Shown one piece after another: positions 1-32,504 of a DNA stretch of 64,000 nt. Position 1 is the first letter of the stretch; each line of letters opens with the position of its first letter. Both the position numbers and the translations under genes were made by a program. The stretch is from positions 1-64,000 of the forward strand of contig QUOL01000028.1 in NCBI GenBank assembly GCA_009761415.1, in the 5' to 3' direction. The stretch is from Sarcomyxa edulis. Taxonomy: Eukaryota > Basidiomycota > Agaricomycetes > Agaricales > Mycenaceae. The notes beneath the pieces are model-generated. The model was not told where the DNA came from and did no database searches. It saw nothing but the letters and a program-made list of their open reading frames with translations.

Positions 1-3000
1 GTGAGATTACCAAAGGAATCTTGGGATAAGATGGAGAATCCTGGGGCATTTGACATTCCTCTGTGGTGAAGAACTTGATCAGATAAGTAAAATAACAGTG
101 GAAACACAACAAACAAACCTTCGGACCACTTTTCGAACCTGAGCTGAGCAGGATCTCCAGCCTGTCCAGTCAAAGCAGCAGCCAAGAAGCCTAACTCAAT
201 GACCGTCAACTTATGGACGGCAAATCCAGGTCCGATGGGTTGAACGTCATTGGGCCAATTCATGGCCCTGACATGATGGGTGGTGGCATCTCTAAGGAAC
301 ATGGAAGGTTGGCATTTTCCTTTGCTAGGGACCCAAAGAGCTTAAACGCTGGTAAGAAGAATAGCTCAAAGACTCATTTGATTGTTGACTTACTGAGTTG
401 TTCACGAAGTCTCAAAGACACCTGTCTTCGAACCTCATCACGTTTGGGCTTTTTCTTAGGGTCTGCCATAAGTGGCAATATCATTTCCCCCGAATTGTTG
501 GCAGCCTGAACTCTGCATTCAAGACAAATATCAGCAGTGTCCGAAAAATAGGAAGTTTCAGTACTAACCGGATTCCGGCTGCAAAGAGGGTCAGCAGGTT
601 ACGGATTGGAACTTTGTTCTTCTCCAGTATATCTTTCGCTTCTGGAGAGCCCGAGAACATAGCGCTAGCAAGGTCAGCCTCAGGGTCAGCACCCCTGGAG
701 ACAACACCTCCCCACATCTCAACACCATACTTCCGACTGTAGGATTTAGCCTATAATCATGTAGATATCAGCAAAAAGGCAGAATGAGCAATTAGAAAGC
801 AAGAATAGCTTACGAGACTTGTCAACTGGCGAACACAGGTGTTCACAGTCTTAGCAGTGGATGTGGAGTCATCATGATCTCTGCAAGCTCCAGGTCCATC
901 ATAAGTTCCTGGCGTTTGGCATCCCGTGCTACTTTGTCCTTGAGACTGATGCCCTGCATATATTTGGTGTAAGCTGCAGAAGCAGCCTGATTCCACTGTC
1001 GGAGAGCAACAACTGGCAACTCGATCAGCATTTACATCACCAAGGTGTATATTCAAGAGACTCACTGTTGTTCTTGTCCGCCGGCGGTGGATGATCCAGA
1101 GCAAAGAAACGCTCATACAAATTCCACAAGTTTCCAGCACGTGAGGGAGTGATTTTGAGACCCGGTGTACTTCTTGACTTGTTCCGGGGACCTTCGGAGA
1201 GTTGTCGCAAGGTTGGTGATGAGTTTGTCAACTTGAGAGCCAAGTGCATCAATTTGCGCAAGTTCCTTCTTGGAGAAAGACCTTTCTTAAACTCCCCCTG
1301 ATCAGCGGTGGTGGTTTCCTCAGTGTCAGAGTCAGAACCATCCTCAGACTCATCTACATATACTTCTTTTGCTTTCCCTTTGCCTTTACGATCCACTCGC
1401 TCCGGACTCTGCACAACATCCTCCGCAAGTTCCAAGTCTTCCGCCTCATCTTCCTCCTCAGTACCTGGCTCTTCGTACCCTAATTTACGCCGGAAATTCA
1501 ACTTCACTTCCTGCTCCTGGCGATCTTGGCTCCAGTCACTGCCAGAGGGCGAAGACTCCACAATCGGAGCCTCATCATCTTCTCCATCCTCTTCTTCATT
1601 CCCCTTTAACTCAGAAACATCGACAACGTCACCCATTTCCGGGTCACAAACATAGTCGCTGTTGATTTCCATGAGCAAGTCATTGTCAGGATTCTGACCA
1701 ATGACTTGGAATGGCGAGCTAGGACGTTCGCGCGGACTTGGGACTTGACTCGCGCGTCTCGGGTGGACTGGGAGTGGGCTCGTGCGTCTCTGGTGGAGCC
1801 TTCAGGACTGCAAACCAGGGACCAGCACCGGCGTCTCGCTGCTGAACAGTAGGCTGCCTCTTCTCAAGCCATCGATCGTATCCATCCGCGAGCTGGGCAG
1901 GATCCATAAGGCTGTTGGAAGTGCAGGGAGGGGATCGAATTCCTCCGTCGCGTACACCTGGATCTTGGTCTTGCGAAGTCGGTTCGCCTCTTCGACATCC
2001 TTGGGAGTGCCCAGGAAAGGCGCTTCTCCAAGATATTGGACATACTGGATTTTTCTGAGCCTTGCATGGTAGAAAGCATAATTATAAGCAAAGTTTCCTT
2101 TCGGTCGCCTATAAGGCTGCAGGGCGGCGGACGGTGGGAATGTGACCTTGTATAGCTTGGGATCAACAGGTGGGTGGGGCGAGGCATGCGTTGCAATGGA
2201 TGCAGACCGATCGATCCCCCGTGTCTTACGAACACGGGAGACAGATGGTGTGGGAGGCGGGTTGGCTGGGTTGGCGTACGCGACAGAGGAGTAGCCGCAA
2301 CCTGGAGACTCAATGGATTTGCTGCAGAAGTTCCCTTCTGCGATGCTGATGGAGTCTCCGGAGGAGGTCTCTTCTGCGATGTTGAGGGTGTTGCAGGGGG
2401 AGGTCTGTGTTGTGAAGCTGATGGTGTTGCAGGGGGTCTTCTTTGTGAAGCGATGGTGTTGCAGGTGGGACACGCGACTGAGTTTGCGGTTGCGATGGTG
2501 GTGGAGGCGACGGTACAAACCGCGCGAGTGAGGCGGAGTAAGCGGGGCCCAGATCCTCAACATGACCCTTTTGCTGATAAGAAGCAGTGGGACGAGGGTC
2601 GCTTCCTGGTCAGTATCGTCAATGCCCCGTGAGGCTCTCGCTTGTGCAACCATAGCTGCCGCCCGAGAGAAGTACCGGACCGTAAGACTGGAGCCCAATG
2701 CAGAACCGTCCAACGGCAGACGGTCCTTGATGCCTGGGACGAGAGTGGAAGCTGGCCCCGGAAATACCCTACTCAATTGTAAGTAAGATGAATAGGACAG
2801 ATAGGTGTCAACGACTTACCCTTGACCAGCAGGATCCTTTCGGCCTGTCGCTCGACTCTCGAGGGATTGCCGTCCAGAGATCGACTCCGAGAGCGACGGT
2901 ACCTTGACATAGAATGATCTATACAATACGTAGTTAGTCAAGTACTAGAATTCAGTGCAGGAACGAAAAAAAGCTTACTTTGAGGGCACCGTGGACCTTG

Positions 3001-3549
3001 CACTTGTGCCAATGTCTTGCTTTTTGGTCTTTCCAGCGGTTGAGGCGGATGACATCGTTGACGCCGTCGAAATGCTGGAATTACTTGGAACTGCAGGACT
3101 GGGTGCAGCTGTCACAGGGCCTTTGTTTTCCTTTCATAGCAGCCGTTCGTTTCTACGAATTATTGTAACTACCAACTCAATAATAATAATGATAATAATA
3201 ATACTTACAGTCCCAGGAGGCGGACGTCCAACCTTCCGTTTGGTCTTCCTTTCAGGCTCAGTTGGCATAGATTCATGGCCTGAGGAGCCGGGTTCGTCGT
3301 CTGACAAAGCAGGCTCGTGGTCCAAAGACGATGGCAGCGCTTTGTGGGTAGGCTGTGATTTCTTCTTCCCTTTAGCCGCCCGCTTTCCTCGATTCCCCTT
3401 CGCAAGAACATTGTTAATAAGAAGGCGGGTGCTGCATATACAATATTGCTTACCTGGTTTTCCGCAGAAGGCTGCGATTGCGGAGCGTCTTGCACAAGAC
3501 GTGTCGCGGAACGCGTTACACGACTCTGAGTTGGAGGGGCCATAGACAA
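1..3549 (-). pseudogene. Decayed multi-exon repetitive-family gene, family 1 copy 1 (runs off window start)
   Basis: I do not know its function. Reading the minus strand, it starts at the ATG near 3543-3549 (MAPPTQSRVTRSATRL). Next come a Lys-rich exon ending KRKVGRPPPGT (about 3418-3210), a Ser/Thr/Ala exon (about 3130-2960), a Pro/Ser/Gln-rich stretch, and a conserved core at 2300-1700 (ALQPYRRPKGNFAYNYAFYH, then GYDRWLEKRQ). An acidic region follows (INSDYVCDPEMGDVVDV, 1678-1300), then exons toward position 1 (NLWNLYERFFALDHPPP, AAYTKYMQGISLKDK, KKKPKRDEVRRQV). Splice sites such as CAG/GTAAGC separate the early exons. Compared with the paralog at 33.6-34.7 kb, the core is spread over different frames: breaks lie near 2250, 1905 and 1720, with no plausible intron there. 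I therefore call it a pseudogene. A (AAT)n run at about 3178-3205 lies in an intron. Its first 5' intron carries the triple-hairpin element described next. Confidence 0.55.
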
Positions 3550-3557
3550 AATCGAGC

Positions 3558-3776
3558 ACTGCGTGAGAACGAACCGTCAGAAAATTCAGACACGACAGAA
3601 TAAGGAATGGGTGGTGATCCAACCCCGAAACAGACGAAAGAGTCAATGTATCGGGGACCACGATGGACAGCAGAGTCAACATCGTGGTCAGCGAGGAAGT
3701 GGACAAAGGAGTCAACTCTCCCTTGCTTGGATATACCGCCGAGAAAATATGCTACCATGACATGAGAAAATTGACT
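3558..3776 (-). repeat. Triple-hairpin leader intron, copy 1
   Basis: This is an apparent 5' UTR intron of the gene starting at about 3549. On the minus strand a GTAAGTCAA donor lies near 3776 and a TTCTCACGCAG acceptor near 3558, a few bases before the ATG. Inside are three consecutive stem-loops. They are 3623-3656 (arms CCCCGA and TCGGGG), 3657-3688 (perfect 9-bp arms ACCACGATG and CATCGTGGT), and about 3690-3727 (AGCGAGGAAG pairing imperfectly with CTCCCTTGCT). Read on the plus strand, every loop matches GACARNNGAGTCAA (the 3' half is also GACGAAAGAGTCAA in the first). The 3' end of the unit on the minus strand is GGTTGGATCACC, as in the other copies. Confidence 0.75.
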
Positions 3777-3999
3777 TACGAGGCACTGGAATACCGTGAA
3801 CGGTACAGCAAAGCTGAGGAGGCAGAAAAGCTGCGTGAAATATATTAGTTGTCATGCCACGGTCCAAAAGAACAATATCGAACTAACCTGTTGGCGTCAA
3901 CAACAAATCCTGACAATGAGCGGGGTGGGTAAGGGTGTGTGTGGAAGTAATCGGAATGGGAGAAAATTTTGGAGCCAGTATGTATTGAGGGGAGCCTGA

Positions 4000-4240
4000 A
4001 TTGATACACATCAGCAAGTTGGACCAAGAAGATAGTCAAAGCAACGAAGGTGGTGATCCAATCCCAAGACAGACAATGGAGTCAATGTCTTGGGAACCAC
4101 GACGGACAGCAGAGTCAATGTCGCGGTGATTGAGGGAGTGGACAGAAGAGTCAACTCTCCCTCAATTGGATAGACCACGGAAGAAAAAAGTGGGGGAAGA
4201 CGACGAGAACAGCGCGAAGGAAAAAAACAATTACCTGGCG
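4000..4240 (-). repeat. Triple-hairpin leader intron, copy 2
   Basis: On the minus strand a CGCCAG/GTAATT donor lies near 4232-4240 and an ATTCAG acceptor near 4000. Hairpins are 4063-4094 (9-bp arms CCCAAGACA and TGTCTTGGG, perfect), 4096-4127 (ACCACGAC with GTCGCGGT, one mismatch) and 4131-4164 (TGAGGGAG with CTCCCTCA). The loops are GACAATGGAGTCAA, GACAGCAGAGTCAA and GACAGAAGAGTCAA. The stems differ from copy 1 while the loops stay the same. Confidence 0.75.
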
Positions 4241-4400
4241 ACTTTATTTTGAGAGCGAGCGAATGAGTGCGAGAGTGAGAGTGAAGGAGAGGGCGAGAGC
4301 GAGGGTGAGAGCGTGGGCGAGGGCAAGAGCAAGAGCGAGAGAGAGAGAGAGACGGAGGGAAAGAGAGAGCAAGGGAAAAAACGATGAGAAGAAACAATGG
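4241..4400 (-). CDS. Short hydrophobic frame ending at the donor of leader intron copy 2
   Basis: A CT-rich stretch on the minus strand reads, in one frame, as alternating Leu/Ala/Ser/Thr (LALALALAHALTLALAL) and ends in TAA 10 nt before the splice donor. Equivalent hydrophobic frames ending just before the same donor are seen at 5.9, 6.3-6.5 and 31.5-31.7 kb, so it may be a conserved short membrane peptide or upstream ORF. All frames here are low complexity and I see no clear start codon, so the coding claim is weak. Confidence 0.25.
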
Positions 4401-4449
4401 AAAAAAAAAGAGGGAGCCCGCAAGCAGTGCAGTTTGTTTGTTTGGTCAC

Positions 4450-5200
4450 GTGCTTGAGTTAGTCACGAGAAGCCAGACGCGTCCTTGTGCAGTGACGCGT
4501 CCGTCTGTAATAGGGTATCCTGATGTAGATAAGAAGGTTAAAATATAAGCTAAGAATGAGTTGTACAAATTACTTACTAGCTACTGTTTAGTTGCATTAG
4601 TATCAACGTTCCGATTCAATTCAGCTCCATATTGTTCGAAGGATCGAGGCACAATACTGTAAATGCTGAGATACACGCATATGTTGCTTGAATATCTTGA
4701 CAGGTCCGTGCAATGGAAGATAAAATCAGGAAAAGCTGTAGAATTTGGATGCGGCGAGACGTATACAGACTCCGTAAGTCCAAACGTCAAACTCCAATGA
4801 ACCTACGAGGAAAAGCAAAAGCGTGCAGACAACCTACACATCGAGATCGCTGCAAAAACAAGAGCATGGAAAGGTGACTATCTAAAGATCCCAGCACTTC
4901 AAGGAAGCACTGGTATTCTAGCATAGAGTGAACGAGTGCATGAGCGATATTGATACCATGGGATTCTGGAAGAGGAGTTTGCTTGCAAATATCATGCGAC
5001 CGTGGTCAGTCTTTGGACAAGCTGAAATTGTGTGATGTTAGGTCAGAAGGGAGAATCAATGCAGTAAAATATATACCTTGAAATGATGTTACGATCAATG
5101 GTAGCAAAGCAAACTATCTAGAACGTTGGAGCGAGATCGAACACAAGAACCTGCAAGGTGAACGGAGTTAGTGGTAGTCGAGGTCAGACAGTCGAGGTAA
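4450..5200. other. Intergenic, no gene recognised
   Basis: I see no convincing coding region or structured repeat here. The stretch is AT-richer than its neighbours and separates leader-module copies. Only short frames without family resemblance are present. Confidence 0.4.
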
Positions 5201-5204
5201 AGTC

Positions 5205-5275
5205 TGAAACAACGGTGATACAACCCCACAACAGACATAAGAGGCGATATCTTGGGGCACCAACAGAAGATGGAC
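5205..5275 (-). repeat. Degenerate fragment of the triple-hairpin leader intron
   Basis: The plus-strand string GTGATACAACCCCACAACAGACATAAG... followed by ATATCTTGGGGCACC aligns with the GTGATCCAACCCC...CTTGGGG block of copies 1-3. It has lost the GAGTCAA loop and the other two hairpins, so it reads as an old copy. Confidence 0.5.
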
Positions 5276-5426
5276 CAGAGAAGAAAAACATAGATAGGCA
5301 AAATAAATTCGAATCAGAACTGACTCACAAGGGATTAGACTCTCGGAGAAACACAGAGCAAAAAACAAGCAACATTGCGAGTTTGAATCTGCGCTAGCGT
5401 TAGTATCCGTGGAGCTAGGCATTGAG

Positions 5427-5660
5427 TTACCACGTACGATTCAACCTGGTTCTGAAGGGAGACTGACACAGCTGAAAGACGACAAGATCGAGGACGTGCA
5501 CGAGAACGAGATTGAGAGCGAGAACACAAGAGAGTAAGGAAATCAAGGCTGTAATGATGATCAATGTCAGCATATATTGAGCTACAAGACAACAAGATTG
5601 AGAACGTACAAAGGGTTTGAAACAAGAGTGAGACAAAGAACACGACAGAGTGAGCAACAA
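5427..5660 (-). CDS. Hydrophobic short frame beside the degenerate leader copy
   Basis: A 77-codon minus frame contains a long hydrophobic segment (YMLTLIIITALISLLSCVLA followed by more Leu/Val) that could span a membrane. It occupies the position that the short hydrophobic frames hold relative to better-preserved leader introns. This supports a recurring exon type, but no function can be assigned and the copy may be dead. Confidence 0.25.
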   Translation of the reverse strand: MLLTLSCSLSHSCFKPFVRSQSCCLVAQYMLTLIIITALISLLSCVLALNLVLVHVLDLVVFQLCQSPFRTRLNRTW

Positions 5661-5674
5661 AGACTCGGAATCTA

Positions 5675-5895
5675 TATTACAGTGATGATTGTTAGATGCT
5701 GAACTTCAGAGAGTTTGAGAAAAGATGGGTGGGTGATCCAACCCCAAGACAGACAACGGAGTCAATGTCTTGGAGGCTACAACGGACAATGGAGTCAACG
5801 TTGTAGCGATCGAGGGAGTGGACAGAAGAGTCAACTCTCCCTCGATAGGATTGACCGCGAGAGGGGGGAGGAGGAGAGAAAAGACAATATAAATT
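5675..5895 (-). repeat. Triple-hairpin leader intron, copy 3
   Basis: On the minus strand an ACAG/GTAAGTAAA donor lies at about 5890-5905 and a GAAGTTCAG acceptor near 5700. Hairpins are 5743-5773 (CCAAGACA with TGTCTTGG), 5776-5807 (perfect 9-bp arms GCTACAACG and CGTTGTAGC) and 5811-5844 (CGAGGGAG with CTCCCTCG). The middle stem has changed at several positions on both arms relative to copies 1 and 2 and still pairs perfectly, while the loop GACAATGGAGTCAA is retained. Confidence 0.78.
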
Positions 5896-6070
5896 TACTT
5901 ACCTGTGCTTCAGACATAAATACCAATCGACTTGAGAACGGCGACAATGAAGACGGCGACGAGAGAGGGCGACGACGACCACAGAAGGTGATGGTGATGG
6001 TGATGAAGGAAAAAGATGAAGTGGCGTTACGGCGGTTCGAAGTTCAAACTTCAAACTTCGAACGCATGCC
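5896..6070 (-). CDS. Hydrophobic short exon of leader module copy 3
   Basis: The minus strand reads a His-rich stretch (from a CAC/CAT repeat) and then SPSLVAVFIVAVLKSIGIYV followed by TGA, 7 nt before the CAG/GTAAGT donor. Upstream lies a short palindromic motif, GAAGTTTGAAGTTTGAACTTC, at about 6036-6062. It resembles motifs upstream of the copies near 31.96 kb and 32.16 kb. A single membrane helix is plausible. No start codon is obvious, so the exon may be spliced to an upstream one. Confidence 0.35.
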
Positions 6071-6302
6071 TAATTGGGTTGGAAATGTTGACACGGCCTA
6101 GTTGATAGTTTCTGGGTCATTTGAGCCAGAGTGTAAACCCAAGAAATAAAATGAGTATTATTCCTGAATTTAATGAAGAGAACATACCTGTGTTTGTGTT
6201 CTTGGTATTGTTGAGGACGCGACACTTGGTGCAAGATTGACAGGACGCGACCAGTCATGTGCCGGCAAGTTCTGACTCCGCTTTGACTCCGCTTCGGAGC
6301 TC

Positions 6303-6509
6303 TTGTTTGTGTCGCCAAGTCCCTCCCACGTCTTTATCACCACCACCACCACCACCATCACCACCATCACCATTGATCCCTCTATCCTCCTCACCTCCCT
6401 CATCGTCGTCCCTCTTGCCGTCCTCCTTGTCCTTATTCTCGCTGCCACTCTTTACGTCGTTCTCGTCACGTTGGGTTTCACTACTCTGCCGGTTATCTTG
6501 ACATTGTAA
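6303..6509 (+). CDS. Hydrophobic short exon of leader module copy 4
   Basis: A (CAC)n run encodes poly-Thr and is followed by ITIDPSILLTSLIVVPLAVL and further Leu/Val, ending TAA just before AAAG/GTATGT. It aligns by eye with the minus-strand frame at 31,530-31,660 (FTIDTTVVLAWVFVSLLAVL). Both have TID near the start, a 25-30 residue hydrophobic core, a GF...P motif and a stop just before the donor. Such conservation between distant copies argues for selection on the peptide, or for recent duplication. The first codon of the open frame is not ATG, so the true start is unresolved. Confidence 0.45.
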   Translation: MFVSPSPSHVFITTTTTTITTITIDPSILLTSLIVVPLAVLLVLILAATLYVVLVTLGFTTLPVILTL

Positions 6510-6513
6510 AAAG

Positions 6514-6700
6514 GTATGTCTTTTTTTTCTTGTCTTTTTTTCTCTTTCCCCTCCCTTTCGTCGCTAGTTCATCCAAGCTAGGAGGAGTTGACTCTGCTGT
6601 CCACCTCCTGGCTTACCACAAAGTTGACTCTACTGTCCATTGTGGTCCCTGAGACATTGACTCCTTCGTCTGTCTCGGGGTTGGATCCACTTCAGTCAAC
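6514..6700 (+). repeat. Triple-hairpin leader intron, copy 4 (plus orientation)
   Basis: An AAAG/GTATGT donor near 6514 is followed by a T/C-rich run and then three hairpins in reverse order relative to copies 1-3, as expected for the opposite strand. They are 6575-6614 (AAGCTAGGAGG with CCTCCTGGCTT, 11 bp with one G-T), 6615-6646 (ACCACAA with TTGTGGT) and 6647-6680 (CCCTGAGACA with TGTCTCGGGG). The loops read TTGACTCTGCTGTC, TTGACTCTACTGTC and TTGACTCCTTCGTC. A CTTCAG possible acceptor lies near 6695. Confidence 0.75.
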
Positions 6701-6749
6701 CCCCCCCTCCCAACCTCTTAGGTTGACAAAATTGACAGAATACATAACC

Positions 6750-6965
6750 TAAGAGGTATGAGTGCCCATGGGCACGTGGTTAATCCCAAGATATCTTGGG
6801 CTTCCCCAAAATTCCTATGGGACTGTCTGTGGGTGCGGGATCTTGGGAACGTCCCATCTTTGGGTATGTCCTAGAAGGGCTGCCCATGTCCCACGTACCC
6901 ATGGGACAGCCCATGGCTGCTGGGCTTCCCCAGAATGTCACAGGGTGTCTGGGGTCACTTTTCCA
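6750..6965. repeat. Cluster of CCCATGGG / TGGGCTTCCCC palindromic repeats
   Basis: The motif TGGGCTTCCCC occurs twice (about 6788-6798 and 6920-6931), and CCCATGGG-type palindromes recur (6764-6772, 6899-6905, 6911-6916). TGGGCTTCCCTAA reappears at 8141-8153 inside a hairpin. These look like terminal or subterminal repeats of a DNA transposon or MITE, possibly of the element carrying the KDZ transposase. I could not define the ends. Confidence 0.45.
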
Positions 6966-7004
6966 TTTTTTTCTAGCATTTGCGTTTAGCACCAGGTATC
7001 ATTG

Positions 7005-8456: not shown

Positions 8457-11400
8457 TCAGAATTCCTCTTCGTCTTGCATCCTGTTACGTTTTCTTGGTG
8501 ATCCTTCTCGGTTTGGTGTTCCTTTAATAGGTGACACGTTTCTGCTGTGAATTGGAGTTTGAAACACCATAGAGGTACGTGGGATGTCAAGTCCTGTTGT
8601 AGTATACGCAGATTGCAATGCATCTGTGAATGTGAACTGTTCAATGGCTTCAATAAGTTCTTCTTCCATTTCGTAATCCGCTTGTTCCTGTTCTTCTTCC
8701 TCCTCTGAGTCGTCATTGTCATTCCCACTCCCAGCACCCAAACTCATCGCCTTATCAATCTCCTGTTGTGATGGACCCCATGAATTGGGCATGTCACGAA
8801 AACACCTAACCACCATCACTTTGGCCTTCCAGATTCCAGATAGCTTACAAAGAGATTGTGCCCTCAAATTGAGCTGATATTCAAGATGACCATCGTTGCA
8901 TTCATTCATAAGAATGGTGATGCATGCCCACTCCTCCATCATCCAGTCCTGCATGGCACATCTCTCCTTTGACAATCGAATCTCCTCTTCCTCGCAACGA
9001 TCCAACTCCAAAAGACTTTTGATGGCTTGTCGAACATATTCATCGTCAAGCCACAATGGAACAGCATTGGCATCGTCTGTAGCTTCATCTAACCCAATGT
9101 CTTGCCAGATATCATCATCAACATCCAAGTCAAAAAGCTTTTCTCGGTTGATCTGGGGGGGTATGATTGCGCCTCGTGGTGCTTGTTTTCCAGCTTTCAG
9201 AGTCGCCATTTCAGTACACAGTTTGTTGTACTTGGCAGCCAATTGAACAATGCCAGGCTCTTTTCTCTTGACCTGACTAGCCGTGTGACTGTGAAGCTTT
9301 TTTTCTGAACAGGATACAATCAAGACATGCACCACAGTCATTTGAGTCAATCAGACTTACCATTGCTAGTCTTGCAGTATGCGCGTTCTAGACGGTCCAA
9401 TTCAAACTTCCTCTGTCTGAGACGGTCACGAATGCGAGACTTTAATGCACGTGCGTTCATGCGTAGCCTGAGGAACTGGTTTCCAACCAACGAAGCTAAA
9501 CGTGCTTTGCCAGTAACCCCAAGTGCCAATCTCTTCCGTTTCAGAGTCTCAGCTAGACTCTTGATTCTATCTTGAACCTCGTCCCGTTGACTGCTTGCCT
9601 CCACAGCATCCATATCATCCTCATACACACCAATAGCCAACATCTTTTCAATGTCCACCAGTTCCTTCTTGTACGCTTTCTGGCAATCTTCCAGTGTCAT
9701 TATCTCTTCGATAATCTTGTCTGCCTTGTCTTTCGATTGACCTTGAGTCAAAGACGCGTCAAGAAATCATGTCTGTCATGAAAATACAAAATACTCACGT
9801 TGCAAAGGCTTGGTTTGTTCGATGACCTGTGCCTTCCATTCTGCCCTGATCAAAAGCTCCCAATCATCTCTGGAGACCCTCTCGTCCGTATTGGCGTTAC
9901 AAAACTCTGTTTCTGCAGCCAACTTCCGCTTCTGACAAGTCTCCCACTTCCGCTTCAGCCAATCACCAAGACTGTTCAGCGACTTGCCATCCAGATACCT
10001 GACTTGGGTATCAAGCACGTAGAGTCTGTGGTGATATCCAGAAACCCGCAAAGATGGGATAAGCAACTTCAGCGCGCTCCAAAACCTTTCACAACCTTCC
10101 CTATCTGACCATCCAAAGCCTTTACACTTGCGTGGATGATAAATCAATTGGCAGGGCCATTGATGCCCGTACGCATGAAAGACGGATATTCCAAATGTGA
10201 TCCGATCCATATATTCATCCAGAAAACCCCACTTTGTGCAGCTCCTGTGTATCTGACATCCGATGTCATAAAGCCAGCCCACAGTCATATCAGAAGGTAG
10301 GTTTTCAAAAAGCTTTTGGATCAAAGCCAAAGAATAATGCTGCTTCTCTCCTGCTGAAGTCATATTGGCCAACCATAGGACCCGATCATGTCTGCAAAGC
10401 AAAGCCATGACACCTGTGTCGGCAAAGAATTGAGTGCTGGCCTTCTTTCTTCTTTCGTCAGCAGCTGTGAAGGATTCATTACATTCCTCCAGAACAGATG
10501 TTGGAACCTTCATAGAAGGCTCATAACCATCTTCTCTGTCAGCATTGGCTTTACCAGCTTTTTTTCTCTGTGAAGATCGAGAGGGTCTCTGCTCAGAAAC
10601 CTTGGCCTCCATGGCCTTGACTTCCTCTTCTGTGAGAAAAACAGTGTTGGGATGGAAATATGGAGGGTCGCGATAGCTGCCTTTGCTGGTTTTCCGTCTC
10701 AACTGAGTGAAACAAGCATCAGAGCTTACTATCACGTCAGCGCTGCATCAAGTCAATAAATCAAGATGCAAGAACTTTAAGCTCAAATATTACTTACATT
10801 GCATCTGGATCATGCACCAAGTCACCCCCAAAACACAGTGGGCACCGCTGCCTCAAGTACTCACTTGGTCTTTTCAGATTATTTGGTGCACTCGAAGAAT
10901 TGGCTGTGGACAGTCTAAGTTGAAATTTCACCCTCAAAATGATCAAGTAAAGCTTACAAGAATTATCCTCATCCTGCAACTCTTTGTCCTCTTCACCTCT
11001 GTCCTGAATCAATTTTGCTCGAACATTATCGATCTTTTCATCCACCATCTTAACGGTCTCATTGATCAAATAAGAATACCATAACAAGGCATTCCCAAAT
11101 CTCCTACGGAGAGTATTCTGTACAGTAACCTTTATCAGAACATGGTATCGTAGAAATGCAATCAAGTGCTCACTCGAGCTTGTAGAGTATAATTACGGTT
11201 GGAGAGAAAGGTCTCCACCGTATCACTCCAAGCTGTAACATTGGGAGCAGTCCGAACAAAGAGATGATTGACAAAATCAAGCATGATGTTAGCGGCAAGG
11301 GATGGCTCAAGTGGAGCACAAGGAAATAAGCCACGTGATAGAAGAAGGTGGGCGGGAGCACATGTACAGATGGTTAAAGTCTTGATTTCTGCATTTATGT

Positions 11401-11908
11401 CAATTCTCAGATCAAAGCTGCAGCCACTACTTTACTCACTGTCAAAATAAACACAAGTCACCATGATTTTCCTTCTTGTGAAACCACATTGACAGTGGAA
11501 AGCTTCGCATTGCTCCATGGAACGCAATGAATGAGACTCTGAAAGAACACGAAGATAGGGAAGCAAAAGTTGTGGAATGACTTCACTCTTCCATGTATTC
11601 CACTGCTTCAGTTTCTTTTTGCTCGTAGAACTTGTCTGTGGCTTAGACACAGTAGCAGCGTGCATTTCGAGCTCATTGGCCTCATTGCCAAAGTCCGATA
11701 GATATTCCGAGCTTCTACTGGGACTTCGAGTTACAGGCTGAATAAAACGGCCTTCTGGAGTATGCAGGTCCGTCCTGGGAAAGAGTGTAACTTCTTGAAT
11801 ACGATGCCGTCCACGTTCGCCAATAGAGACAATAGCAAATGGTTCTGTTTTGTCGGGTGAAGTAGAAGCAGTAGCGCGTCGTCTGAAATTTGGAGCTCGA
11901 AAGGACAT
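8457..11908 (-). CDS. KDZ-superfamily (Kyakuja-Dileera-Zisupton) transposase with N-terminal Cys cluster
   Basis: This is a DNA transposase encoded by about seven exons. Exon 1 (11908-11436) holds CEAFHCQCGFTRRKIMVTC. Exon 2 (11388-11174) continues TLTICTCAPAHLLLSRGLF, then PCAP. Together they form a CxC1-like cysteine cluster of the kind known next to KDZ transposases. After RRRFGNALLWYSYLI and a CPLCFGGD motif, the 10735-9776 exon carries the catalytic core: CRHDRVLWLANM, then YDIGCQIHRSC, then HAYGHQWPCQLIYHPRK and CERFWSALK. The D/D/E residues are probably those of CRHD, YDIG and CERFW (my inference). The 3' exons (9751-9347, 9350-8457) are coiled-coil and acidic, ending QDEEEF. I followed the first splice junction (donor GTAAAG, acceptor ATGCAG) and it restores frame. 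No internal stop was found in the core, so the gene may be intact. Confidence 0.88.
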
Positions 11909-11989
11909 AGTTCTGTAGCACGGAATTGGGGGGAGGAAAGTAGACAGGGAATCTGATGTTGCCCGCGCACCCCACTATATATATGTGCA

Positions 11990-12388: not shown

Positions 12389-12919
12389 CTAAGTCGACTC
12401 GGCCATATGAACGGGTATCCAGCGAGGGCAGGTAGGAGCGCGACCAAACTTGTTGAAGAAAGTTTGGCAGTACACCGTCGCTAACATCCTCTCAACGCCG
12501 TTGATCTGCTTGGTCAAATTTTGCCTAGCTATCTCCGCGAGCGAAGGAAGACGAACACAAGTGAAAAAAGCCATGGTTGAGGGTGACATCGGCCAGTCCT
12601 TCATGAGATTTTGGAGAGCCTCTAAGTACGGAACCTTTTCGTTAGGCTGGATAGCCACCAGGCCACAATTTCTATGGGGTATTGGGCCCACCGTGTACCC
12701 GGAATCACCAAAAAAGACAGCCCGAACATCCTGATCGCGCGTCCCAGCGTTGTCGTCCTCCCACAAATCAGGCCTGAGTTTACGGTCCAAAGCAAGTAGT
12801 TCAAACCGGAAATTCAACTCGCACAACTCCCATAAAATCTCAGACTCGATCTCGGGAGTAAGACCTTGGTTCATGGCGTTCTCGTCGAGGGTATTGATGG
12901 TGGTGCCATTCCAAATCAC
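12389..12919 (-). CDS. Exon of an unclassified agaricomycete repetitive-family gene
   Basis: The frame reads GTTINTLDENAMNQGLTPEI, then ESEILWELCELNFRFELLAL, then VRAVFFGDSGYTVG, and ends at a stop near 12,389. I recognise this style of sequence as recurrent in agaricomycete genomes next to transposase genes, but I know no function. The MITE-like element starting at 12,936 sits directly upstream of the first residues, so the 5' part of the gene is separated from this exon. It may be a 3' exon of the same transcription unit as the Plavaka-like transposase or a separate accessory gene. Length is about 176 codons, which looks partial. Confidence 0.45.
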   Translation of the reverse strand: MIWNGTTINTLDENAMNQGLTPEIESEILWELCELNFRFELLALDRKLRPDLWEDDNAGTRDQDVRAVFFGDSGYTVGPIPHRNCGLVAIQPNEKVPYLEALQNLMKDWPMSPSTMAFFTCVRLPSLAEIARQNLTKQINGVERMLATVYCQTFFNKFGRAPTCPRWIPVHMAEST

Positions 12920-12929
12920 TTCACACTGT

Positions 12930-13085
12930 GCGCCTCAGACGGGGTGAAAACCTACCGGTAAAGGGTGATATTCCCCGTTCACCCAGACCCGGGTGAAAAA
13001 AGGGTGACTAAGAACAACGAATTCAGAGGGTGAAAGCAGGAGTTTTTTTCACCCCAGACATTCACCCGTTTTCCAGGGAGGTTCC
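12930..13085. mobile_element. MITE-like element with GGGTGAAA / TTCACCC repeats, copy 1
   Basis: It begins CTCAGACGGGGTGAAAACC (12,936) and contains many GGGTGA or TCACCC motifs, ending near TTCACCCGTTTTCC (about 13,070). The same terminal sequence, read inversely (TTTCACCCGGTCTGAG), ends the larger element at 28,945. It is probably a short non-autonomous DNA transposon. It interrupts the region between two coding segments on the minus strand. Confidence 0.6.
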
Positions 13086-13792
13086 GCCATGAGCGATGAG
13101 GGACTTAGAGCTTTCTGTCATCTGAATGAAACGACAAAATTCGCCCGGTCGACGGGTTGTATTCACTCGTGTTCTGGGCATAATTTGCTCAACTTCAGGA
13201 GACGAATCCAACTAATGATCAACATTGTCAGTGGCAAATACAGCTCGTACTAATTTTCCACTGCGATCAATGAGAGTCCAACCACGGTTTTCCATGTTAC
13301 GGACACGACCTACTACACATTGCACACAGGTCATATCGACCACCTCCAACCTACCCAGACGTTGAAATTGGTGCATGTCGAGAGGCTCGTCACTGGTGAC
13401 GATACAAGTTCGGATTGCCGCAAGAATTAGAGTGGACGGCGACTTAAGCTTGAACTTGCGAGAAGCTGGGAGGTGGACAACGAAGATATGTTGTAATTGC
13501 CCGTAGAATGTTTGTAGTTCAAACTCGGGTTCGGCGTGTCGATCATTAGCGTGTACATCGACCAGCATTTCGTACTGTATATGATCAGAGTTAGTTATAC
13601 AAGAGGATGAGAAGAATGATAAGTGAGATGTACCCGAACAAAGGTTGTGTCACGGCAATCCTCGATATCTGTTAACAGTGCTGAAGCAGTCATGGTATCC
13701 CCGCCATCCAACCGTTGTACCTTTCCCCATTGGTCCACTGAGGTGTTCTTCATCAACTGTCGAACTGCCGCCATGGTTTGATCAAACCGCGT
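13081..13792 (-). CDS. 3' part of Plavaka-like transposase gene, cut off by the Ty3 insertion
   Basis: The minus-strand frame continues from the LTR edge as TRFDQTMAAVRQLMKNTSVD, then VQRLDGGDTMTASALL and DCRDTTFVR. After an intron comes the 13,568-13,212 exon (YEMLVDVHANDRHAEPEFEL, then GQLQHIFVVHLP). This matches the C-terminal style of Tnp2/Plavaka-type transposases. Removing the retrotransposon and one 4-bp target copy puts this frame directly in phase with the frame ending at 23,753. Downstream (13,200-13,081) TRVNTTRRPGEFCRFIQM may be a further exon. Confidence 0.6.
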
Positions 13793-15294
13793 TGTGGTAG
13801 AGAATATGATCTAGGGGAGGAAGTAATACGGTCGCCTGAAGCTGAATGTGGTCCGAGTGATAGAGTACCTAGAAAACCGAATAGTCAGCAATATAGGACT
13901 TTTAATGAAACCAAACCTCTTCGATCCACAAGCGAGTGGAGCTAGAGAGTCTGTCTGGAGTTTAGGAAAGGCAGTCGAGATGTCGGTGTCGAGACGCGAT
14001 GCGTGTGCCTGTTCTCGATCAGAGTTCCCAAAAAGGGAAATTCCGCGTCGGCCGTGGTTGGAATGAATGCGAATCAGGAATTGGGGAGAAATGAGACTAG
14101 GATAATATGGGGGAAGGCCCTTCGATGCTGCTGTCGACCAACGAGCGAGTGATTGTCGTGGTGGGAAGAGAAAAGAAGGCGCAAAGCTTGATTCTTGAGG
14201 CTGTGTAGCCAAGCTCGTAAGTCCGCGGAGAGTGGATTTATGCGGTTCCTACAACCGTAGATAGTTAGCGTATCGACGAAGGGGGATAGTGCTCAATGTA
14301 TGCTAGTTGTGGCGCTTTTCGTGGCTCTGAATGTTGTTGCTCGGGGATGTGGCTCAAGACTTCTGAAGTCAACTGTGAAATCCAGGATAAAGGAGATGAT
14401 TTCTTCGAAAGGCCAAATCGAGCCTATGAGTCCGAGCAGATAGGAGTAAGGGATATTGCCCGCGTGCTCTCGCGTCAACAGGGCCCAGAAACGATGAAAC
14501 AAAAAGGAAATTCGAAATTATAAGAAAAATGGTGAGATATTGGGATTTTAATATTTCGTGATGATATCAAGGGTAGATTGAGTGGTGGAGCGTTTTCAGT
14601 AGGTGATAGTGTATCATATAACGTTTGAATCGATGCCGCGGAATGGTGAGTTCACCGAGAATCCACCAGGAAGAGGGAGTCAGTGACGAGGAAACACAAC
14701 CCAAAACTGGTGCACGAATCACTGCCCCCGTCAGTGCGGCGACTCAGTAGGGTGTGGACTGGGCTCTCCTAGGTCTCATCTCGGCTGCGTCGTTCGTCGT
14801 TGGCACGTTTGAAGGGAGAATCGAGTGGATGAAGGTAAAATAGTATGTAAAAGTCTGGAACATGACAAATTTAGTAAAAGTAAATGAGCAGAAAGCGTAC
14901 TAGATCCTTGTATAACCCAGAACCATGCCCAAAGGCTCCATATAGCGTATCGCGTATGATGAACGAGGCGAGAGTGTGTGTCGACGGATGGTGGGGGTAA
15001 ATGGTCAAGACCGCGGCGGACTTTGTCGATGTTTGGCTACGGCTTCTGGACTGTATGGGGACTTGGGCATTTCGCCGAGTTCGAGCTCTGTGGTGTTTTC
15101 TATATATTTTGCTGAGTATGTTAGTAGAGGAGTGGAGTGGAGAACCAAGGAATTCGAAGGAAAATTTAAAGACCACATGATTTTGAATTTCTGTGGTAAA
15201 ATGAAAATAAGGCATTAAATCCGTAAGATTTAGATCAAGCGCGAATTCTTCTCATGTGGAGGGATCGACGAGTAGGCCGTCTTTCCCTTCCACA
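13793..15294 (-). repeat. 3' LTR of the Ty3 element
   Basis: It starts TGTGGTAGAG and ends CTTCCACA (plus-strand reading), 1,502 bp, matching the copy at 22,251-23,752. Because the genes run on the minus strand, this is the 3' LTR. Open frames inside (for example 13,811-14,212) occur identically in both LTRs and show no domain. Confidence 0.95.
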
Positions 15295-15305
15295 GAGGGG
15301 GGGAG
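15295..15305 (+). other. Purine tract GAGGGGGGGAG next to the 3' LTR
   Basis: This tract abuts the inner edge of the 3' LTR, where a polypurine tract is expected. However, it is purine-rich on the plus strand, opposite to the coding strand of the element; on the sense strand it reads CTCCCCCCCTC. Either priming differs from the usual scheme or the true purine tract is elsewhere. A dyad, GATGTTGTCCTCAACATC, follows at about 15,311-15,328. Confidence 0.5.
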
Positions 15306-15410
15306 TTGTGATGTTGTCCTCAACATCAAGTAAAAGAAATGGAATGAGAAGAATTGATAAAGAAAAAGAACGAGAGACAAGCGAAATGTTTTGACGTTAC
15401 TGTTGTAACT

Positions 15411-18400
15411 TCAAGTCGGACGAATGAATCCTAGCCAAAATCGATTGCGGTTGGCGTCGTCTGGAAAGTACCCCCCTCGTTCTGCAATGTACACGTCGTG
15501 TTCCGCACAAGCAGCCACATCATTGGATGAGTCATAGAAATGCTCGATGTCTGGATGTTCGCGTATAGATCCATTCCAGAGACGCTCGGATCGTAGGGAT
15601 ATGTTTTCGAAACGATATACCCGTCCGAAAACATGCTTGATTTCGAAATCCACTGGGTAGAGGGTGATGTTGTTGGGGAATGTGATGTTGCGTGCGGTGT
15701 GGGTGTAGAAAGGTATTCGGCTGTACGGAGTGATGTTGGAAAGTGGATGTGGAGTGTGCGGATCAACGTATCGAATGACGCGCTCGTATTGTTGAATCTT
15801 CTCGAACAGTGATGCGCTGAGTACGGTGCGTAGAGTCTGGTGGTCCTTCCGATAGTAAAACAGTTTGAGTCGGTGGACGTTGACGTGACCTCGAAGAACG
15901 ACACCGTTGAGTTCACGGAGTACGTAGGCGTTGTTGGGACGTTTCTCGTGGATGATGTAGGGTCCTGACCATCGATCCTTGCCTTTGTTACCATGCTGGT
16001 TGTCGAGCCAAGTCTCGTGTCGGAGAACCCACATGCCTTCTTCAAAATCAGCAAAGTCTGAGCGTAGATTGTGCTTCTTGTTGAAATCGTCTATGGAGCG
16101 TTTACGAGTGTCAGCGATGAGCTTCATGGCGTCCTGAACCTTCTGGTCTCGACGAGATATTTGAACGGCGCGAAGGGCGATGAGGGAAGCGGTGTCTTGA
16201 ATTGTATGCCAGTCGAGAGTCTGCCAAGTTGCATCGTCAATATCAAAAGCAAAAACTGGATGAATACCGTATATCATGAAGTATGGGGTGTACCCTGAGA
16301 CCCGGCTGACGGTGACTCGAATTGCGAGAAGAACAGCGTAGACGTAGAGCGGCCAGTGTGACTTTTTGCTTCCCGCAGCCTTGATGACGCCGGCTTCGAG
16401 TACCTGATGAGAACGTTCAGCAGAACCATTGCCTTGAGGGTGATAAGCAGTGGAAACAATAACGGTCACACCGTATTGAGCATATACTTCCTTCGCTATG
16501 CCTTTGAACTCGGTTCCTCCGTCGATGGTGAAGTACGGTACGCAAGAGAACCTGCATATGATTGACTCGTACATAAATTTGGCAATTTGTCGAGAGGTGA
16601 TGTTCTTGACAGCGCGTGCTTCGGGCCATTGGGAAAGCGCGTCGACGGCAGTGATGAGGTACTCGTTACCTCCGTAACCTGTTGGCATGTGAATGCAGTC
16701 GAGGTGGAAGTGTCGAAGGATGGTAGATTGCCATGATGGATTGTATGGAATGATTGGCTTCGTCTTTGAGTTGAGTTGGCATTGAAGGCAGGAACGTATG
16801 AAGTAGGCGACGTCGTCGTACATGTTCGGCCAGATGTATCGCTCCTGTAAACGTTGGTAAGTAGCATCGCGGCCGCGATGGCCGCACTCGTTATGAGCTT
16901 GCGCCAGAATCTCTTGTCTGCGCTCTAAGTTCTCCACCACCAGACGCGGTAGGGAAGTTCCCTTCTTGTTAGGAATGAGCCAAAGACGATTGTCATGGAT
17001 GAAATAGCGCTTTGCGCGTTTGATAAACCTCTCTCGAGCTTTCATGTCCTTGAGACAATTAGCTGGCAAGCCCCTCGAAGACAAGTAACGCCGAATATCA
17101 GCCCACATCTCAGGACTATCGTGGTCTTTAATGCCGAAAGCATGATTGATGCACGCTATTGTCTCTCGCGTACACGGAATGGGTAAATAATCCCATCTGT
17201 GGTCTACGCGTTCCGCACCACAAGTCCAACCAGAGGATACAAAATCAGTCAAAGCAGGAGAAGGCGCACCTGGGGCCAATTCGGACATAAAGGACCAAAC
17301 ATAATGAACGAAGGGTAGGGTAACCACTTCGTCACCGAGTAGACAAGCTCCTGAGCTTTCTACACGTGTATGACGGTTGAAAAATTCGTGACCGACGTAG
17401 GAAAGTTCATCCGTAGTGCGCAGAAGAGATTCTTGTAGTAAAGAGCCGTCATACTCGTTGTCGTAGCAGGGTTCGTAGTTCTGAGCTGGTCCAGGGACGT
17501 GAGTATCGAGTTGCGGTTGAGCATCGAGTAGTGGCGAGATATCTGCAATAGAGGTGCTAAAGAAATGGTTTTGAGGCGAAGCAGCATGGTCAAACCAGCC
17601 AACAAAGGGTGCGCGGTACACCGAGTTCCCTTGACGGATAAACATGATGAGATCGAGCAGCGAAGACACAGAAGTCGGGGATAGGAGAAGGGACTCAGCG
17701 GTATTTATATTCTTGATGATCTTGAGGGGTTCTAGCCATCGCGTTCTAGTTTCTGAATCCGCCGGGTCAATCACATTCACATTTCCAATGAACTTATCTA
17801 GAAATTCCTCCGCATCTTCGTCGTCACTGTCCTCGGCTGATTTTGGACGTCGAGAAAGCCCGTCGGCGGCGGCATGTTTCTCCGCTTTGATATGTTGCAT
17901 CTCGAAATCGAAGAGCTGAATATATGAGATCCAACGAGTCATTGGAGCATTTGGTAAGTCAGGGGAATAGATCATTTCTTTGAGAAACTTAGCGTCGAAT
18001 TCCAGTCTGAACCGTATTCCCCATATGCGATGGCGAAGGTCCTTGAAGGCGCGAAAGACACCGTATAGTTCCGCTTTAGGCTGTGAGTATCGAGACTCGC
18101 GTTCATTGTAAGTGCAGGATCCAAAGATCGAAGGTTTCTTGTTTTCAAGGAGTTGCTGGTAAACGACCCATCCCGATCCCCATTTCGACGAATCCACTGC
18201 AACTGAAACTAAACCGTGGTCAGATTCACGAGGTAACTGAGTGATAGACTTAGCTAGTGTATAGTCGATTGCAATGAGCACCGGAACCGACGTAACCAGT
18301 TGTTTGAGAGTATCTTGTGCTTGTCTCGCTGCTTCGGTAAACTCAAAATCGTAATCAGTTCCACGTAAGAGAACGGTAAGAGGCTTAGCTATCAGAGAAT

Positions 18401-19805
18401 AATTCTTGATCCACTTGCGTCCACAACCGGTGGTTCCGAGAAACCCACGCACCTCCGAGACGTTTCGAGGTTCAGGCCAGTTGAGGATCTTCGTGATGAG
18501 TCCATGGTCAAGATGCCATCCTTCGAGCGAAACCATAGTGCCAACAATGTGTAGTGTTGGTGTAGCTAGCGTAGTTTTGAGTCCGGATGCAGTAATTCCT
18601 GCCGCAATGAATCTGGCAAAAACGCGGTCAAGAGTCTCAGCATATTCAAAAACGTACCGTCGAATATTGGGGTTATCTTGCAAAGGCTCGTTGTTGTACG
18701 TTGAAGTTGGGCCTTTGATGCCAGTGTCGTCTAAAAACGGTTGGCACGCATGGGGAATTTCTTCCACCAAGGCATGACCGACATCGCGCTGAAACTCTTG
18801 CATGGCGTTGGTGTAACCCATAGGTAACGTTTTCTGTTGCTTGGGACCGCATATCAAATGGAAACCGGTGAGAGGGCGAGAGATTTTGGCTAGAATTCGC
18901 GCATCGAAACCTGAATAAAGATCCGCAATTCCATATATGGCACGTCCGATGAATCCTTCCGCAAACGTGTCGACTTGTGGAGGTAGGGAAGCGTCTCTGA
19001 TAACAACAGAATTCAGATCTTGAAGGTCAAGAACAAGACGTACCGAGCCGTTTTTCTTCATGACTGCAAAGAGAGCGCTGCGGTAGCTTGAAGTCATTGG
19101 CTCGAAGCGTCCGGCTTGTTCTTGGTCCATAATTTCGTTCCGAACCGTGTCTTCGAGTGCTTTTGGGACTTTGATAGGTGGCCGTTGCCAGGGCGTGTGT
19201 TCTATGGTCGGAATTTCGTAATCTGGATAGTATTCTCTGGAAAAGGTTCCCTTTTCAGCGAACGTGAAGGCGAAGGCCTTTTCGCGGCGAGCGATAACAA
19301 AAGAAATTAAATCCAATTCCTCAGGAGACAAAAACCCTTCAGGTATTGTGTTCATGAGCAGCTCGTATCGCTCTTTGGTCAGTTTAGCGGTTGGAACAAA
19401 TGTTGAACGAGATGGAGGGAAATGAGGTAAAGACTCAATGGGAGGTAACGGAATAGGCTTGAAAGCCTGAGCGCTGGGATTTGGCATGTAAGTTGGGACT
19501 GGTCGGACTTTCCGATCGACGGGCTTGTATTTCTTGCGGGCTACCGCCGACGAGTTGAGAGTTTTGGTATCTGTTTGAGAAAGGGCTCGAAGAGTCCATG
19601 GTGTTAGTACAGGTTCAAAGAAGGGAAGGGCGTAGCTTGAATATCGAAGTAAATGATCGAAGGAATCTGGAGGAGAAAGAGTAGTAAGAGAATTAAAAGT
19701 AGAAAAAGTTGGATCACCTAATAGTCCGTGAATTGATCGGCCTAGCGTTGCACAGGACACACTTCGTTCAAAAGGCCGGGGCAGTGTGCCCTTCTTCAAA
19801 AACCC
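15411..19805 (-). CDS. pol: Ty3 pol: reverse transcriptase, RNase H, integrase
   Basis: The polyprotein of about 1,460 codons copies and integrates the element. Visible in order are RT (RLVLDLQDLNSVVI near residue 250; active site QPFLDDTGIKG, with FLDD in place of the common Y-x-DD), RNase H (VSVAVDSSKWGSG; PKAELYGVFRAFKDL), an integrase zinc site (HNECGHRGRD ... CLQCQ) and the integrase core (FHLDCIHMPTGYGG, then YFTIDGGTEFKG and HPQGNGSAERSHQ). No chromodomain is evident in the long C-terminal tail. The pol frame is open in the -1 frame relative to gag and its first listed codon is TTG, so I expect expression as a Gag-Pol fusion by frameshifting rather than from its own start. No stops or frameshifts interrupt it. 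Confidence 0.95.
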   Translation of the reverse strand, partial: GFLKKGTLPRPFERSVSCATLGRSIHGLLGDPTFSTFNSLTTLSPPDSFDHLLRYSSYALPFFEPVLTPWTLRALSQTDTKTLNSSAVARKKYKPVDRKVRPVPTYMPNPSAQAFKPIPLPPIESLPHFPPSRSTFVPTAKLTKERYELLMNTIPEGFLSPEELDLISFVIARREKAFAFTFAEKGTFSREYYPDYEIPTIEHTPWQRPPIKVPKALEDTVRNEIMDQEQAGRFEPMTSSYRSALFAVMKKNGSVRLVLDLQDLNSVVIRDASLPPQVDTFAEGFIGRAIYGIADLYSGFDARILAKISRPLTGFHLICGPKQQKTLPMGYTNAMQEFQRDVGHALVEEIPHACQPFLDDTGIKGPTSTYNNEPLQDNPNIRRYVFEYAETLDRVFARFIAAGITASGLKTTLATPTLHIVGTMVSLEGWHLDHGLITKILNWPEPRNVSEVRGFLGTTGCGRKWIKNYSLIAKPLTVLLRGTDYDFEFTEAARQAQDTLKQLVTSVPVLIAIDYTLAKSITQLPRESDHGLVSVAVDSSKWGSGWVVYQQLLENKKPSIFGSCTYNERESRYSQPKAELYGVFRAFKDLRHRIWGIRFRLEFDAKFLKEMIYSPDLPNAPMTRWISYIQLFDFEMQHIKAEKHAAADGLSRRPKSAEDSDDEDAEEFLDKFIGNVNVIDPADSETRTRWLEPLKIIKNINTAESLLLSPTSVSSLLDLIMFIRQGNSVYRAPFVGWFDHAASPQNHFFSTSIADISPLLDAQPQLDTHVPGPAQNYEPCYDNEYDGSLLQESLLRTTDELSYVGHEFFNRHTRVESSGACLLGDEVVTLPFVHYVWSFMSELAPGAPSPALTDFVSSGWTCGAERVDHRWDYLPIPCTRETIACINHAFGIKDHDSPEMWADIRRYLSSRGLPANCLKDMKARERFIKRAKRYFIHDNRLWLIPNKKGTSLPRLVVENLERRQEILAQAHNECGHRGRDATYQRLQERYIWPNMYDDVAYFIRSCLQCQLNSKTKPIIPYNPSWQSTILRHFHLDCIHMPTGYGGNEYLITAVDALSQWPEARAVKNITSRQIAKFMYESIICRFSCVPYFTIDGGTEFKGIAKEVYAQYGVTVIVSTAYHPQGNGSAERSHQVLEAGVIKAAGSKKSHWPLYVYAVLLAIRVTVSRVSGYTPYFMIYGIHPVFAFDIDDATWQTLDWHTIQDTASLIALRAVQISRRDQKVQDAMKLIADTRKRSIDDFNKKHNLRSDFADFEEGMWVLRHETWLDNQHGNKGKDRWSGPYIIHEKRPNNAYVLRELNGVVLRGHVNVHRLKLFYYRKDHQTLRTVLSASLFEKIQQYERVIRYVDPHTPHPLSNITPYSRIPFYTHTARNITFPNNITLYPVDFEIKHVFGRVYRFENISLRSERLWNGSIREHPDIEHFYDSSNDVAACAEHDVYIAERGGYFPDDANRNRFWLGFIRPT
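19755..19805 (-). promoter_or_regulatory. -1 ribosomal frameshift signal between gag and pol
   Basis: On the minus strand the gag frame reads GAG GGT TTT TGA. The heptamer GGGTTTT (19,805-19,799) fits X XXY YYZ exactly in the gag frame and is directly followed by the gag stop. Seven nucleotides later GGGCACACT (19,791-19,783) can pair with AGTGTGTCC (19,763-19,755), giving a 9-bp stem with one G-U. Pol lies in the -1 frame. This is the classical layout of slippery site, 5-9 nt spacer and stem. A smaller alternative stem, GGGCA with TGCCC, overlaps it. Confidence 0.8.
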
Positions 19806-22120: not shown

Positions 22121-22231
22121 GTTGGAAACCGAGAAAAAGAATGGAATAGAGAAAAAGGGGTTTGAAAGTGAGAAAGGAAAACTCAGCGAAGTTTGAGTCG
22201 ATAGACCAAGGCTTGAGATCGGAATACCGTT

Positions 22232-22250
22232 GACCTGCCCCGGTCACCAC
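22232..22250 (-). other. Putative primer binding site
   Basis: One base inside the 5' LTR, the sense strand reads TGGTGACCGGGGCAGGTC. A start with TGG, complementary to the tRNA CCA end, one base from the LTR fits a primer binding site. I could not identify the matching tRNA. Confidence 0.55.
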
Positions 22251-26503: not shown

Positions 26504-26697
26504 CTGTGAACATGTTCTTAGAGTAAGCAAATGCCTATACCATGAATAGGGATGGAAATCGCACTGGAACTGATAGTCCGAGTGCTTGCCATGAATATTG
26601 AAAGTGGTCACCTACGTTGGAAGAACTAAGCGAGGCGCCAGCAAGCGCGACCCCACCCCCTCTTGACCAGCTTGCACCTTATCTTCCAACCACAACT

Positions 26698-26715
26698 CTA
26701 TATATCTATATCCTC
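26698..26715 (+). promoter_or_regulatory. TATA-like core promoter of the 26,742 gene
   Basis: TATATATCTATATCC lies 27-42 nt before the ATG at 26,742, in an AT-rich stretch after CT-rich sequence. The short distance implies a short leader. Confidence 0.45.
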
Positions 26716-26741
26716 ATATAAACAATCTAATCTCTACAATA

Positions 26742-28318: not shown

Positions 28319-28365
28319 TCAAGGAGTAGTGAGCGGAAAATCATCAATTTTGGGTTGAATCTTAT

Positions 28366-32502: not shown

Positions 32503-32504
32503 TA

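Follow-up and report, generated by a model that had tools for sequence, protein, structure and literature searches.

Three-hairpin units in apparent introns of a KDZ transposon lineage of Sarcomyxa edulis

A 64,000-nucleotide stretch of the genome of the basidiomycete Sarcomyxa edulis (contig QUOL01000028.1, positions 1 to 64,000; hereafter the window, C21:1-64000) contains repeated three-hairpin units located inside large DNA transposons that encode a KDZ transposase. Repeated hairpins presenting one constant, recognised tip on variable stems are known from the CsrB/RsmZ-type RNAs and the MS2-type hairpin arrays. These systems are bacterial or phage-borne and not intronic, and their tip is unrelated to that of the units described here. 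Covarying RNA structures inside mRNA introns or untranslated regions were described beside host genes in five ascomycete genomes (PMC8216456); none of those presented in the portion of the article drawn on here is a three-hairpin transposon unit.

Two types of KDZ transposons are the closest described elements. KDZ1 of Cryptococcus has in common with the present elements the KDZ domain PF18758 and, as far as the ends could be identified, inverted termini; a putative 8-bp target duplication, as in KDZ1, was seen here for one element (PMC12810828). KDZ1 measures about 11 kb and ends in 241-bp terminal inverted repeats (TIRs), whereas the present elements measure roughly 17-19 kb and carry two genes, referred to as gene A and gene B; intronic hairpin arrays are not mentioned for KDZ1 in the excerpted parts of that article. 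The TET+ Kyakuja families of mushrooms are likewise multi-gene KDZ elements, of which Kyakuja-1_LB and -2_LB are described, in the sections cited, as having CA..TG ends, no TIRs and 7-bp target site duplications and as carrying TET/JBP (PMC12730594). In contrast, the six weak Tet_JBP matches of the S. edulis genome all fell below the cut-off and none lay inside a fetched unit-bearing element. The words 'hairpin' and 'stem' each occur 0 times in the main text of PMC12730594. No description of such units was found in the literature searched, the coverage of which is incomplete, and this is weak evidence of novelty.

Anatomy and covariation of the unit

An earlier note on the window had proposed a family of leader introns with GACAG-NN-GAGTCAA loops. 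The motif family is real. With up to two mismatches, GACAGNNGAGTCAA matches 22 times in the window as compared to 7.3 +/- 2.7 times in shuffled sequence (0 of 100 shuffles reach 22). The exact motif occurs at 103 places in the genome (35.6 Mb, 40 contigs) and its reversed pattern at 3. Clusters on C12, C21, C27, C28, C34 and C40 hold or adjoin 92 of the 100 exact-motif places listed, the other eight being singles. The copies of the window are as follows, the putative introns having been delimited by eye.

3611-3740, minus strand: three-hairpin cloverleaf unit, 144 bits; putative intron 3559-3780(-), GTAAG ... CTGAC ... CAG
4050-4179, minus strand: three-hairpin cloverleaf unit, 152 bits; putative intron 3996-4234(-), GTAATT ... 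CTGAT ... CAG
5212-5303, minus strand: degenerate unit, 23.8 bits, E 6.5e-05
5730-5859, minus strand: three-hairpin cloverleaf unit, 144.2 bits; putative intron 5672-5902(-), GTAAG ... CTAAC ... TAG
6563-6687, plus strand: three-hairpin unit with its 3' outer stem interrupted at 6688 by a second KDZ element; the donor is GTATG at 6514 and the native acceptor has been lost
31380-31475, minus strand: unit reduced by deletion to two hairpins; putative intron 31328-31520(-)
32344-32474, plus strand: three-hairpin cloverleaf unit, 143.7 bits; putative intron 32296-32535(+), GTAAG ... CTGAC ... CAG

Every copy listed in the note was recovered, including the degenerate one at 5.2 kb, with two amendments: the 6.6-kb copy is truncated by an insertion and the 31.4-kb copy has only two hairpins, all three being present in its sister at C28:22187-22317.

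The loop of the note was quoted on the strand opposite to the one that is presumably transcribed. This presumed sense strand of the unit is the complement (TTGACTC...GTC), on which the stem of each hairpin (about 8-10 bp) leads through a 5' UU bulge to GAC/GUC and to a hexaloop, UCYNYY, whose final base is mostly U. UUGACUC and GUC are invariant in all three hairpins in 30/30 rows of alignment A1. A scan of 294 kb in which only GAC-N6-GTC was fixed returned 518 sites. At least six stem pairs, with G.U and a single mismatch tolerated, are formed at 149 of them, and the UU bulge is present at 147 of these 149. One mononucleotide shuffle of the same 294 kb gave 0 stem-bearing UU-bulge sites. The three consecutive stem-loops were also confirmed, to which a fourth, outer stem (about GGU..AUCCA / UGGAU.ACC) has to be added that closes around the three hairpins and makes of the full copy a cloverleaf of about 125 nt. 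As cut, the 42 three-hairpin copies (36 distinct) range in length over 127-131 nt and can be aligned with few gaps, their tip motifs forming direct repeats spaced mostly by 33-36 bp. Among the 52 units of the fetched loci, counted where at least one exact TTGACTC-N4-GTC tip with stem is present, 48 have three hairpins, two have two and two have one. Six degenerate matches to the covariance model (L014:7422, L009:9847, L021:7705, window:5212, L019:8187 and L023:9533; 17-90 bits) are outside this count.

The minimum free energy of one unit copy is -64.3 kcal/mol (z -7.9, reached by 0/200 shuffles) and the predicted fold is the cloverleaf. Covariation was assessed on two alignments whose rows are kin by duplication, so that shuffle counts are not probabilities. 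A1 comprises 30 of the 36 distinct three-hairpin copies, six near-identical ones having been dropped. Both sides changed in 25 of its 49 pairs as compared to 11.3 after shuffling (0/500), with 113 both-side-changed cells versus 32.3 and a score of 0.244 versus 0.129 (0/500 each). Shifting the partner position gave 6-9 pairs and scores of 0.05-0.09. A2 includes the diverged element described below (50 matches, 44 distinct) and is biased towards structure because its rows were fitted to the model; 25 of 39 pairs covary versus 11.8 shuffled (0/500), with 166 both-side-changed cells versus 44.0. Position 26/43 of A1 is unpaired in 25/30 rows, which counts against a continuous stem. Comparison of the copies shows selection on the fold of the unit, as the note had claimed for a folded nucleic acid.

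The 14-mer could also act as a DNA site, bound by a transposase or a repressor in double-stranded form or as an extruded cruciform. Direct repeats at nearly regular spacing in a promoter-proximal position would suit such a site, and folding is equally good on the antisense strand. However, the stems covary, and a double-stranded DNA site alone was rejected on this ground. Further, the sites are central in the transposon rather than terminal, and the strand of the motif is fixed relative to the apparent introns in 9/9 clusters with both orientations. On the sense strand, G.U is more frequent than A.C (46 vs 29 in A1; 63 vs 18 in the model-fitted A2), which lends no more than modest support to RNA. 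Altogether a DNA site is considered very improbable.

Transposon carrier and apparent introns

All-against-all comparison identified the unit clusters as the divergently oriented centre of repeated elements, with gene B on one side and both gene A and the KDZ transposase on the other. Ten long-type KDZ matches (>210 bits) are present in the genome. Nine could be judged and 9/9 of these elements carry units; the tenth, C28:2955, lies too close to a contig end. Units are absent from two sampled KDZ genes of the more distant type, which is numerous in the genome, and from the 8 kb upstream of each. Gene A was found at no fewer than nine places, 9/9 within unit-bearing elements. Pfam searches with gene B and the other open reading frames (ORFs) were without result, and 0/29 pattern matches to gene A in viral contigs were confirmed as relatives. 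In the window, parts of two elements are recognisable:

1040-3545, minus strand: ORF pieces of gene B of element 1; the 3.6, 4.1 and 5.75 kb units lie upstream of it
6688-6740, no strand assigned: terminus CACTTCAG... of element 2, inserted in a unit of element 1
8457-11974, minus strand: KDZ transposase gene of element 2 (ORF pieces), with the KDZ domain ORF at 9776-10747 (PF18758, E 5.4e-64)
12392-12934, minus strand: 3' part of gene A of element 2, split off by inserted transposons
28729-31343, minus strand: ORF pieces of gene A of element 2, in which exon 2 starts unlike that of the other copies
33357-34687, plus strand: gene B of element 2 (ORF pieces, partial)

The elements end in CACTTCAG...CTGAAGTG. 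The units being central, the suggestion that they might be a transposon terminus was abandoned. At C21:112158/129569, CACTTCAGG...CCTGAAGTG is flanked on both sides by the 8 bp TCCGGAAT, in a locus with a local inverted duplication. No partner ends were found in the DNA searched for the elements of C34, C40, C12 and the window. A unit of element 1 is interrupted at 6688 by element 2, whose CACTTCAGTC... follows the 8 bp GTTGGATC (window 6680-6696); the opposite end of element 2 did not turn up in the fetched DNA, which reached C21:80000. At 12923-28955 element 2 is itself split both by an element that looks Ty3/gypsy-like by eye, whose 1.5-kb repeats (13793-15295 / 22251-23753) are 99.9% identical, and by a tnp2-type transposase ORF (24222-25832, PF02992).

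Each copy had been claimed to lie between a donor and an AG acceptor. A donor upstream and a branch point and AG downstream were indeed found for 42 of the 50 units with at least two hairpins, as compared to 0/50 on the antisense strand and 2.4/50 at random positions; the 6.6-kb copy, which lost its native acceptor, departs from the claim. Donors are mostly GTAAG, at times GTATG, GTGAG or GTAAT, and branch points are CTRAY. The units point outward from the element centre in 9/9 clusters with both orientations and are arranged as one unit per intron with several introns per leader. The apparent introns in which they reside mostly precede the start codon. The label of leader intron fits most of them; one unit of the diverged C16 element lies within gene B between GTTAGT and CTGAC...ACAG, apparently in a coding intron as judged by eye.

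In the 41 of 48 triplets for which both signals were found, the putative introns are 214-245 nt long, with a median of 231 nt, and subtracting the approximate span of the unit from the distance between donor and branch point leaves about 85 nt. This regularity raises the possibility that the fold only serves compaction, joining donor and branch point so that an intron of ~231 nt is treated by the fungal spliceosome as one of ~85 nt. Constant tips, exactly three hairpins and the change of tip described below would be left unexplained, and compaction alone appears improbable. Repeated units of intron size with splice signals also recall introner-like mobile introns, one of the functions envisaged in the note, which would insert independently of the transposon. 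Yet the clustered units found are confined to the KDZ lineage or its fragments, with which they multiply, or are amplified by tandem duplication of exon and intron together, as in the 302-bp blocks repeated at C40:1086247-1087282. Independent mobility is therefore extremely improbable.

Introns can also serve as hosts of small RNAs, as illustrated by snoRNA host genes, which deliver snoRNAs from introns. By analogy, the debranched intron could yield a stable three-hairpin RNA acting in trans as a protein sponge or scaffold. One unit per intron, several introns per leader and tandem exon-intron blocks are compatible with such a host gene, as is unit DNA better conserved than its surroundings. 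On the other hand, no known snoRNA emerged from Rfam, with 0 matches at E<=5 in window 3001-7000 and 0 at the gathering score in 40 kb of other loci (L021, L023, L009, L014). On balance a trans-acting RNA is unlikely. In L036, which covers 8 kb of the C16 element, Rfam gave three sub-threshold matches, none over a unit; a weak tRNA-like match lies at L036:6268-6351 (26.6 bits, cut-off 47). Motif scans of viral and prokaryotic DNA collections returned five stretches. The covariance model recognised none of them as a unit, its best score being 10.5 bits (E 0.09), and gave no match at E<=1 in L044.

Tip types and a candidate reader

The element on C16 is diverged. Its gene A is 47-51% identical at the protein level to that of the other elements, and within L036 (8 kb) only the KDZ region and the units, which are more conserved than their surroundings, match them at the DNA level. 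The C16 units score 96, 90, 74, 31 (cut by the stretch end), 27 and 23 bits. All 18 of the 18 tips found, in six triplets, read UCUYAU. By a stem criterion leaving the loop free, loop position 5 is A in 15/15 C16 hairpins and C or U in 132/132 hairpins elsewhere. Genome-wide there are 30 occurrences of this type II tip, all of them on C16 (18) or C4 (12), and they form ten triplets; the reversed control gave 0. Comparison of the loci thereby shows the tips to be element-type specific. The four triplets on C4 (C4:187130-198104) form two mirror-image groups ~10 kb apart and are spaced like one C16 side; no KDZ match lies near them among the matches listed.

In three of the six C16 units, 9/9 hairpins are closest to the type I hairpins of the same position (H1/H2/H3). 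The ancestral unit probably had three distinct stems already, and with the stem identities kept, the tips changed in concert at three places. The stems of the other three units are unrelated while their tips are the same. Constant tips, variable stems, grouping in threes and a lineage-wide change of tip are what is expected of repeated sites for one specific factor. Of the three functions envisaged in the earlier note, protein-binding RNA fits best.

A tentative model, held with slightly less than even confidence, is that the unit forms an RNA platform read by a co-evolving factor that controls the splicing or expression of the element. The three tips would be the repeated binding sites of this factor. 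Since the tips of the C16/C4 type switched together while orthologous stems kept their position, co-evolution of the factor with the element is probable, and the element itself is therefore the most likely to encode it, all the more as a single host contains both tip types. Gene A ranks first among the candidates because its places coincide with the unit-bearing elements, an argument from distribution only. Binding would control the removal of the unit-bearing introns, regulated removal being the simplest consequence of units located in apparent introns mostly before the start codon. In an unspliced leader, several folds with energies of about -55 to -64 kcal/mol would precede the start codon and should prevent scanning, and splicing would then be an on/off or feedback switch of element expression. 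Splicing control, the identity of the protein and the direction of the effect are all inferred here.

The tips could instead be read by an RNA-binding protein or a silencing factor of the host, either enhancing expression through promoter-proximal introns or allowing poorly spliced transposon RNA to escape surveillance. The parts cited of a study in Cryptococcus report that introns raise expression cumulatively (PMC3744415), in agreement with this proposal. Conversely, two tip types in one genome are hard to reconcile with one host factor. In addition, among the five of the eight single motif places examined with the covariance model (L001, L025-L028), the only tip hairpin outside KDZ elements is a partial match of 15 bits on C39. 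A host reader is thus quite unlikely. The C39 hairpin (C39:534193-534206, L025, sense strand minus) stands alone, with a type I tip and an 8-pair stem, and may be due to chance or be a relic; no KDZ match is near it among the matches listed.

Several observations weigh against the model of an element-encoded reader. Since gene A lies in physical linkage with the units, its co-distribution with them does not in itself demonstrate interaction, and gene B and the KDZ transposase are linked to them as closely. Gene A is without convincing relative in Pfam or PDB, which makes its binding to RNA a guess; a single-sequence structure model (predicted local distance difference test, pLDDT, 33) was unusable and not used. 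The concerted tip change could also have come about by short conversion tracts between tips or through a change of a host factor. Splicing is apparent from signals alone, and one or both signals are missing in 8/50 units (four without 3' signals, three without donor, one without both); two short-stemmed C16 units (66.2 and 66.6 kb) have no obvious donor nearby. With -67.4 kcal/mol (z -7.9), the fold of the antisense strand is no worse than that of the sense strand, hence the energy can neither choose the strand nor tell RNA from DNA. Finally, the outer stem is the least certain helix, as it pairs in 89.6% of cells and only 2/9 of its pairs covary.

Extending the model of an element-encoded reader, the lineage may possess its own RNA recognition code, in which the matching element protein must read the triplets before transcripts mature. 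Sub-lineages would have diverged through a joint switch of the reader and all tips, with position 5 going from pyrimidine to A or the other way round, resulting in self/non-self discrimination at the RNA level, parallel to the specificity of transposases for their termini at the DNA level. This extension is rather doubtful. With a two-type tip code in one genome and an RNA family unmatched in Rfam 15, a private RNA-protein pair regulating a DNA transposon becomes testable. If true, it would add an RNA layer to the means by which large DNA transposons regulate their own expression and distinguish themselves from relatives.

Other repeats of the window

Further along the window, a 2685-aa ORF at 43829-51886 looks like a Helitron helicase by eye and is adjoined by repetitive coding sequence at 43.2-43.7 kb. 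Palindromic or inverted repeats (78-nt arms, 96% complementary) are located at 57252-57878 and also at 35.5 kb (35468-35535).

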